DNA of 64,000 nt. Source: Ottowia testudinis (lineage in GTDB: Bacteria > Pseudomonadota > Gammaproteobacteria > Burkholderiales > Burkholderiaceae_C). The DNA lies in contig NZ_CP071796.1 in NCBI RefSeq assembly GCF_017498525.1, positions 2,666,001-2,730,000 on the forward strand, read 5' to 3'. The notes beneath the pieces were generated by a model. It searched no databases. It worked only from the letters and a program-made list of their open reading frames with translations, and had not been told where the DNA came from. The position numbers were made by a program, and so were the translations under genes. Numbering within the stretch: the first letter of the stretch is position 1; each line of letters begins with the position of its first letter. This document shows, piece by piece, positions 6,504 through 7,656 of the stretch.

Positions 6504-6509
6504 CTTGTA

Positions 6510-6655
6510 TCTTCCCCCTGAGGTTTCGACCCGGCCCATGCAGCCCGATGCGTCCTTGGGTTGTTGTTATTCAAGCCCGTCGCAGAGCACAGGGCGCATG
6601 AGCCGGATCGTCTTCTGATGCAAGCCCGAACGGTTGTAGGAGCATGGAAGTTCGC
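6510..6655 (+). ncRNA. Predicted bridge RNA of the IS110 element
   Basis: In IS110-group elements the left end encodes a structured RNA with a target-binding and a donor-binding loop. Here CATGC-A-GCCC (6537-6546) pairs with GGGCGCATG (6592-6600) and encloses two short segments. 6549-6556 (TGCGTCCT) equals the left target half plus the CT core. 6581-6587 (CGCAGAG) is the reverse complement of the CT core plus the right target half (7655-7661). Downstream, 6630-6636 (ACGGTTG) equals the donor end at 7648-7654, and 6617-6624 is complementary to 6504-6511 with one G-T wobble. The RNA ends are not determined; the target loop is much better supported than the donor loop. Confidence 0.65.
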
Positions 6656-7639
6656 ATGAACAAGGATGGGAGCCCAGAGGATATGTCTGAATCTGTATTC
6701 ATCGGTATTGACGTGGCCAGCCAAACGCTCGAAGTGGCCAGCAGCGCCCAGGCCAGCACCTGGCAAGTGAGCAACGACAGCGCTGGCATCGAGCAACTGG
6801 CCCAGCAGTTGAAGGCCCTTGAGCCCGCTCTGGTGGTGCTTGAAGCCACCGGCGGCTACGAGTTCGAGGCCGCCTGCGCGCTGCAAGCGGCCGGTTTGGC
6901 GGTGGCCGTGGTCAATCCACGCCAGGCGCGGGACTTTGCCCGTGCCATGGGCGCGCTGGCCAAGACCGACGCGCTGGATGCACGCGTGCTGGCCGCGTTT
7001 GCCCGGGTGCTGCACCAGCACCCCGAGCGCGAGCGCTTCGTCAAGCCGCTGGCCGATGCCCAGCTGCAACGGCTGCAGGCGCTGGTGCTGCGCCGCCGCC
7101 AGATCGTGCAGATGCTCACCGCTGAGCGGCAAAGGCTGCGGCTGTCGCACGCAGCGGCGCGCCCGAGCATCGAGCGGGTGATTGAGCTGCTCAAGCGCGA
7201 GCTGGGTGACTGCGATGCGCTGGTGGCTGAACATGTCCAGCAGCAGCATGCCGAACTGGCTGCGGCCTTGAGCAGCGTGCCGGGCGTGGGCGCCGCCACG
7301 GTAGCGGTGTTGCTGGCCGAGATGCCGGAGCTGGGCACGCTGGATCGGCGTGGTGTGGCAGCCTTGGCAGGCGTGGCGCCGCTCAATCGCGATTCGGGTC
7401 AGATGCGCGGGCGCCGCTGCATCTGGGGCGGGCGCGAGCAGGTGCGACGCACGCTGTACATGGCCGCGCTGGTGAGCTCGCGTCATAACCCGCTGATCAA
7501 GGCTTTCTATGAGCGCCTGCTGGCGGCAGGAAAGCCCAAGAAGGTGGCGCTGGTGGCATGCATGCGCAAGCTGCTGACGATGCTCAACGCCATCGCCAAA
7601 AGCAAGCAAATGTGGAATCCTGCAATGCATGGGGGTTGA
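6656..7639 (+). CDS. IS110-family DEDD recombinase (transposase)
   Basis: A 327-residue protein if it starts at ATG 6656 (GGAAG five bases upstream); ATG 6644 and 6683 are alternatives. The N-terminal RuvC-like domain has the DEDD residues Asp19 (FIGIDVA), Glu63 (VVLEATGG), Asp105 and Asp108 (KTDALDARV). The C-terminal Transposase_20 domain begins near [18 protein letters not shown] and carries the likely nucleophile Ser247 in [13 protein letters not shown]. All catalytic residues are present and the frame is intact, so the element may be active. Related enzymes recombine target and donor DNA under guidance of the element's own RNA. Confidence 0.93.
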
Positions 7640-7656
7640 CAGGTAAGACGGTTGCT

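Follow-up and report, generated by a model that had tools for sequence, protein, structure and literature searches.

The element and its copies

The stretch of DNA analysed here, 64,000 nucleotides long and called the window below, carries an intact IS110-group insertion sequence at positions 6504-7656 (Table 1). The element measures 1153 bp with both CT cores, or 1151 bp when the core is counted once. It is located between a gene at 5871-6326 that we take, from its translation, to encode a RidA-like protein and a gene on the opposite strand (7685-8869) of which the translation presumably represents an MFS-like protein. In the host genome, four full copies of the element were found. After trimming at the cores, two of these are identical over the 1153 bp, one has a single base changed, and the fourth (L004) is described below; the 318-codon recombinase frame is complete in all four. 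The preliminary description of this locus proposed an intact and possibly active element, which agrees with four copies that have complete 318-aa frames and differ at 0-4 positions. We consider the element a clear new example of an RNA-guided IS110 jumping gene that is probably active.

Table 1. Positions of the element, its predicted functional parts and related loci. Coordinates are window positions unless a contig is given.
Feature	Position	Strand	Basis
Dispersed palindromic repeat of the host, split by the element	6405..7669, approximate		rejoined flanks look like uninterrupted copies
Left target half (LT) TGCGTC	6498..6503	+	same in 4/4 copies
IS110-group element, both CT cores included	6504..7656	+	4 copies, sharp ends, unrelated outer flanks
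Core CT, left end	6504..6505	+	sequence, copy borders
Non-coding left end with predicted bridge RNA	6504..6682	+	covariance model, covariation
Right donor half (RD) TGTAT	6506..6510	+	sequence; CTTGTAT at left end of relatives
-10-like TATCTT, left end	6508..6513	+	joined-end sequence
Predicted target-binding loop, long imperfect stem, 17 pairs modelled	6528..6609	+	folds, covariation
Predicted left target guide (LTG) TGCGTCCT	6549..6556	+	identical to 6498-6505 (left flank + core); permutation test
Predicted right target guide (RTG) CGCAGAG	6581..6587	+	reverse complement of CTCTGCG 7655-7661; permutation test
Predicted target-loop handshake guide CA	6588..6589	+	complementary to TG 7653-7654 before core
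Predicted left donor guide (LDG) ACGGTTG	6630..6636	+	identical to 7648-7654
Putative right donor guide (RDG) AT(GA)ACAAG	6656..6664	+	sequence; IS621 pattern
Predicted donor-loop handshake guide GA	6665..6666	+	complementary to target TC 6502-6503
IS110 recombinase, 318 aa + stop	6683..7639	+	profile and structure-sequence matches
Putative -35 box TTGACA, right end, overlaps stop codon	7636..7641	+	junction comparison
Left donor half (LD) ACGGTTG	7648..7654	+	sequence, match to LDG
Core CT, right end	7655..7656	+	sequence, copy borders
Right target half (RT) CTGCG	7657..7661	+	same in 4/4 copies
Second IS110 lineage, loci L005-L008, L151-L159	G000:C1 ~35, 297, 648, 1135, 2442 kb		
Second IS110 lineage, further places	G000:C1 ~2447, 2892, 2897, 3535, 3998 kb		

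A DNA search of 299 family genomes found near-identical elements in the host genome only, the next best match being 78%. Megablast gave no match to the element in plasmids, and tblastn detected distant relatives in 2441 plasmid records, with 56.5-57.3% identity among the matches listed. Viral contigs yielded no relative, either by protein patterns or by a guide-bearing pattern. An Rfam scan of the window at gathering thresholds reported no RNA family at the element and a single tRNA elsewhere.

Recombinase and translation start

The protein is recognised by PF01548 and PF02371, both above cut-off (run on the 327-aa form), and by NF033542 (IS110 family RNA-guided transposase) with 226.5 bits against a cut-off of 140. 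Among recombinases of solved structure, phmmer matched the IS621 chain with E 2.2e-34 and 122 bits, and ISCro4 (PDB 9t56) with 122.8 bits, E being about 2e-34 for both. IS110 recombinases have catalytic D, E, D and D residues and a conserved serine in the Tnp domain. The four acidic residues and the conserved serine align with the IS621 sequences GID, EATG, KTDTVDAR and ESG; D102 and S241 are named for the IS621 recombinase (PMC11208158).

The recombinase was initially taken to have 327 residues, which places its start too early, with the ATG at 6656 inside the putative right donor guide. At this position all 17 aligned relatives have ATA, and a GTG or ATG is aligned with position 6683 in 15 of the 17 (absent in L051 and L056). 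The two positions are 27 bases apart here and 26 in the relatives (25 in L055), so the earlier reading frame is not kept in the relatives. Since the 6656 ATG falls within the guide, corresponds to ATA in relatives and opens a frame that is not conserved, the recombinase is most likely a protein of 318 aa starting at 6683, leaving 179 bp of non-coding DNA at the left end as compared to 17 bp from the stop codon to the end of the right core.

Target-binding loop of the predicted bridge RNA

The single-sequence fold of the left end is no better than that of shuffled sequences (z -1.0; 29 of 200 shuffles at least as good), and the structure was therefore judged from an alignment. Relatives from 20 loci, with best segments that are 57-84% identical in protein, could be aligned with the window copy through the whole left end; the covariation alignment contains 18 left ends, namely those of 17 relatives and the window copy. 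In these 18 sequences the proposed structure is paired in 98.7% of the cells, and two-sided changes occur in 9 of the 29 pairs (23 cells), every one of them in the target-loop stem. None of 500 shuffles equalled these values for pairing and two-sided changes, four of 500 equalled the count of further pair types, and shifting the partners by 1-3 columns reduced pairing to 21-48%. The preliminary description had named a lack of conservation or covariation in stem and guides as a refutation; both covary in the relatives. Because the donor-loop stems are nearly invariant, covariation supports the target-loop stem only; the unaided RNAalifold consensus agrees on this stem as well.

The stem consists of CATGC (6537-6541), a bulged A (6542) and GCCC (6543-6546), with partners GGGC (6592-6595) and GCATG (6596-6600), and an inner stem-loop at 6558-6578 sits between the two target guides. 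The letters and coordinates of this core stem (6537-6600) agree with the preliminary description, and its extent has to be enlarged, as pairing runs further outward to about 6528/6609. The two segments described as guides proved correct too: the LTG is identical to the left target half plus core, with the coordinates given for it, and the letters of the RTG are the exact complement of the core plus right target half. When the left end was shuffled 200,000 times with dinucleotides preserved, 452 of the shuffles contained the 8-nt LTG and 7641 the 7-nt RTG; the LTG followed by the RTG was found in 9, and both followed by the 7-nt donor guide in none. The left end is predicted to encode a bridge RNA of the IS621 type.

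Predicted donor loop and handshake positions

A donor-binding loop with an LDG and a discontiguous RDG can be recognised downstream of the target loop, the RDG being assigned by pattern only. The putative RDG would pair with CTTGTAT (6504-6510) with two bases skipped; in IS621, nine RNA nucleotides of the RDG similarly lie on seven donor bases (PMC11208160, PMC11208158). The segment at 6656-6664 was preferred because its pattern is kept in relatives and because it matches the IS621 arrangement. Another candidate RDG, GATGCAAG (6617-6624), was dropped as it is not kept in the aligned relatives. CTTGTAT recurs at the left ends of relatives, in a search with one mismatch allowed. The LDG covaries with the end of the element: it comes in three main types, ACGGTTG, ACAGTTG and ACGGTTA, and in 39 of 43 rows all 7 nt equal the end of the element that carries it; the search for element ends allowed all three types plus one mismatch. 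The two nucleotides that follow each right guide, CA and GA, can pair with the bases preceding the core in the opposite DNA, in agreement with the IS621 handshake model. The first of them shows this complementarity in 43 of 43 rows for the target loop and in 52 of 55 for the donor loop, counts which include the host's own copies. Left unconstrained, RNAalifold gave the donor loop a consensus pairing other than the IS621-like one; the IS621-like form was imposed on the covariance model.

One relative (L049/L115, JACRNC010000013.1) has a donor loop with a tandem 24-nt unit (GAACGGTTGTATGAACTTGAAGT...), giving two LDGs per RNA, and several copies of its left end are present at contig ends of genome G696.

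Target repeat and insertion sites

Read in the orientation of the element, the borders of all four copies are TGCGTC|CT ... CT|CTGCG. Rejoining the flanks, which for the window copy are remnants located at about 6405-6503 and 7657-7669, restores an apparent dispersed palindromic repeat of which intact copies read ...GACGCAGAGGACGCA ... TGCGTCCTCTGCG ... TGCGTCCTCTGCGTCCGGCTGTT; this layout was taken from 30 of the 61 motif sites. The motif TGCGTCCTCTGCG occurs 61 times in the host genome (36 forward, 25 reverse) versus once for the reversed-pattern control. At least one copy is found in 29 of 250 sampled family genomes and at least ten copies in five of them, with counts of 61 (the host), 73 (a genome of the same genus), 92, 271 and 49. 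The repeat remnants in the window contain the target motif at 6411(-) and 6478(+). Two uninterrupted TGCGTCCTCTGCG motifs are present elsewhere in the window, at 47627-47659.

Near-identical copies at unrelated targets would have spoken against guided insertion; all four copies lie at a guide-matching site in one and the same repeat. The preference for an intergenic repeat, as originally worded, holds for the repeat at four of four sites, and for its intergenic position at the window copy, where the neighbouring genes were seen. The four sites, taken with 30 bases on each side, show no unusual folding (z -0.53 to 0.85). Palindromic targets did not prove to be general among the relatives: of 35 joined target sites, including the four of the host, five fold at z <= -2 and the mean z is -0.39. 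In the relatives L094, L131 and L148 the guides match another hairpin (CTCTCCC...GGGAGAG) at the insertion sites, a further example of a palindromic target.

Guides and flanks in related elements

A covariance model of the left end gave matches in 14 of 399 genomes sampled from the order and 29 of 399 sampled from the family (E <= 1e-5), the two samples overlapping. Applied to 84 of the 150 collected loci, the model produced 82 matches, of which 13 were duplicates and 69 were kept. Among these 69 the right flank was readable in 43 and the left flank in 58; rows were lost where a contig ended inside the element or the end motif was not found. For the permutation test the four host copies were excluded and one row was kept per distinct loop. 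The RTG agrees with the RT of its own element at 4.34 of 5 non-core positions, as compared to 2.03 for permuted pairs (n=35), and the LTG with its LT at 4.11 of 7, as compared to 3.00 (n=36); neither value was reached in 20,000 permutations, showing that the guides track their own flanks in relatives. For 11-nt loops the LTG score is that of the better of two registers, for observed as well as for permuted pairs. The effect persists within the close group, with 4.25/5 versus 3.24 for RTG-RT (n=12; 0 of 20,000) and 4.50/7 versus 3.47 for LTG-LT (n=14; 8 of 20,000). When the register is slid along the flanks the matches fall, leaving a residual signal of z 1.3-3.2 on the right flank and 2.7-4.1 on the left, to which relatedness and shared composition probably contribute.

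The agreement is not uniform. The LTG match is loose beyond the three core-adjacent bases, with values of 0.24-0.60 at the outer four of the seven positions (own copies included). Poor RTG fits were found for L134 (2/5) and for L040, L051, L056, L105, L109 and L147 (3/5), and poor LTG fits for L100 (1/7) and for L101, L121, L122 and L141 (2/7). The elements L049, L138, L139 and L140, which probably belong to a single genome, share one LTG and occupy different sites, the left flanks of which have mainly the core-adjacent bases in common.

Predicted junction promoter and transcript

When the ends of the element are joined, TTGACA of the right end comes to lie 17 bp from TATCTT of the left end, and a promoter of this form would arise only at the circle junction. 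TTGAC is found at the exact spacing in 31 of 34 distinct junctions (exceptions L097, L105 and L109), and the mean match to TTGACA at that position is 4.94 of 6, as compared to at most 2.91 over 25 other positions tried. The joined ends would thereby reconstitute a promoter, from which a bridge RNA of roughly 160 nt could be transcribed, running from ~6520 to ~6680. A start at ~6520 would leave only ~8 nt upstream of the stem of the target loop, so a counterpart of the IS621 5' stem-loop seems to be missing; no such stem-loop ahead of the target loop appeared in the single-sequence fold or in the consensus.

Proposed mechanism and alternative explanations

The anatomy of the element, the complementarity of guides to target and of guides to donor, the covariation in relatives and the four insertions at guide-matching sites together argue for an autonomous IS110-group element that moves by bridge-RNA-guided recombination, a reading to which we assign a probability of about 0.94. 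Transcription, complex formation and catalysis would then take place as follows. Excision would give a circle in which the right end is joined to the left end, bringing TTGACA and TATCTT to the 17-bp spacing and switching on the left-end RNA of ~160 nt. The first loop of this RNA would pair with the target TGCGTC-CT-CTGCG, the LTG with the bottom strand and the RTG with the top strand, while the second loop would pair with the circle junction ACGGTTG-CT-TGTAT by means of the LDG and RDG. By analogy to IS621, the recombinase would swap strands at the common CT core with the handshake bases helping. The palindromic repeat that has the target in its arms is abundant in the host and would offer the element many presumably harmless sites.

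Of the alternatives, the one that survives best, improbable as we find it, is a bridge-RNA element that is now immobile and of which the four copies were spread by genome duplication or gene conversion. Copy L004, with three substitutions and one deletion over the 1153 bp, has lost a base adjoining the -10 region, and the mobility of the element is deduced from sequence; against this stand the unrelated outer flanks of the four copies, their complete 318-aa frames and intact guides, and the identity of two of them. Far less credible is a site-specific insertion sequence in which the protein itself recognises the repeat and the look-alikes in the left end are regulatory or fortuitous. The use of one site by all four copies is expected from a sequence-specific enzyme too, and the RNA is at this point a predicted transcript. 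However, both target guides arise by chance in the right order in just 9 of the 200,000 shuffles, relatives with 75-84% identical recombinases have different flanks that their loops track, and the homologue IS621 is proven to be RNA-guided (PMC11208160, PMC11208158). Least probable of all is that the left-end segments resemble the target through a piece of repeat captured or duplicated at insertion without guiding function: the target letters are indeed common in the genome, with 61 motif copies, but the two segments are on opposite strands and exactly placed on both sides of the loop, the loops of relatives read other targets, and neither a direct nor an inverted duplication would yield one half per strand around a conserved hairpin.

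Comparison with known systems

The guided element proposed here most resembles IS621, with which it shares a DEDD recombinase with a Tnp domain, a CT core, an RNA from the left end with two loops in each of which the left guide reads as the top strand and the right guide as the bottom strand, a discontiguous RDG, handshakes, a circle promoter and a repetitive palindromic target (PMC11208160, PMC11208158). The protein is only distantly related (122 bits in phmmer), the target repeat is another one, and the RTG has 7 nt versus 4 in IS621, longer RTGs being reported for some orthologues (PMC11208160, PMC11208158). The target-loop stem is longer here, so that no space remains for the 5' stem-loop that is part of the IS621 consensus (PMC11208160, PMC11208158). 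This stem-loop is the sole sequence-testable feature of the group that is absent, and it is not known to be a group-wide requirement.

The seekRNA of ISEc21 and IS1111 elements is comparable in that, as in the IS110 type, an upstream non-coding RNA has segments matching both target strands (PMC11187229). IS1111 elements differ, as their RNA is usually located downstream of the gene and subterminal inverted repeats can be identified (PMC11187229), which measure 7-17 bp (PMC11208160, PMC11208158). An IS1111-type downstream RNA in a long right end was not found in the present element, which has 17 bp after the stop codon and its predicted RNA on the left. The insertion sequences ISPpu9, ISPpu10, ISPa11, ISRm19 and others likewise insert specifically into dispersed extragenic palindromes, the REPs (PMC1525189). 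That work by Tobes and Pareja (2006) predates the guide RNA, and the parallel with the TGCGTCCTCTGCG repeat is one of insertion habit. ISCro4 (PDB 9t56) has a homologous, distant recombinase (122.8 bits) and is likened by protein alone.

The observation is real, well supported and ordinary in kind. Bridge-RNA-guided systems like this one were described in 2024, and promoter reconstitution in the IS621 circle (PMC11208160), the targeting of extragenic palindromes by IS110 relatives (PMC1525189, PMC11208160) and the variety of IS110-type targets (PMC11187229) are known as well. A literature search with a few terms in a limited collection returned nothing on this element or on the tuning of guides to such repeats. 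The significance of the locus is that it confirms the bridge-RNA model independently, from sequence data only, in a branch distant from IS621, with the parts expected under the model (four guides, two handshake positions and a promoter at the junction) occurring together. It also supplies a naturally occurring recombinase whose right target guide is long (7 nt).

A second IS110 lineage in the same genome

Ten places in the host genome are similar to the 3' part of the recombinase gene (76% over 127 bases) and represent a second IS110 lineage (Table 1), with copies of 1211-1259 bp (nine read). Both ends are readable in nine of the ten, and all nine have CT at both ends and CT|AC at the right side. 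Their left flanks, ACCCAGC (four), ACCCAAC (two), CCCCAAC (two) and ACCCACC (one), resemble an arm of a further palindromic repeat. The sequence ACCCARCCTAC occurs 9 times in the host genome as compared to 5 for the reversed control, a count which does not establish an abundant repeat. The left end of copy L152 resembles that of a bridge-RNA element, with guide-like segments that match the site of this lineage: ACCCAGCCT is followed at some distance by GTAG, which is CTAC in reverse complement and on our reading may be the right guide. The long stop-free frame of this copy covers only 483-1197, so that it may be broken.

With the four-copy lineage apparently reading the TGCGTCCTCTGCG repeat and the ten-place lineage the ACCCAGC-CT-AC end of another, we tentatively raise the idea, itself rather doubtful, that IS110 elements retune their target guides to palindromic repeats abundant in the host and that co-resident lineages divide the repeat families among them. 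With two IS110 lineages and seemingly two different dispersed repeats in one genome, the host provides a natural laboratory for guide evolution.

Two copies of the second lineage have further peculiarities. An insert of roughly 870 bp interrupts copy L006 (~3535 kb). In L007/L158 (~2897 kb) the left end is tandemly repeated with a 42-bp step, and the junction is located exactly at ACCCAGC|CT within the copy's own left-guide DNA, as if the guide DNA had served as a target half.
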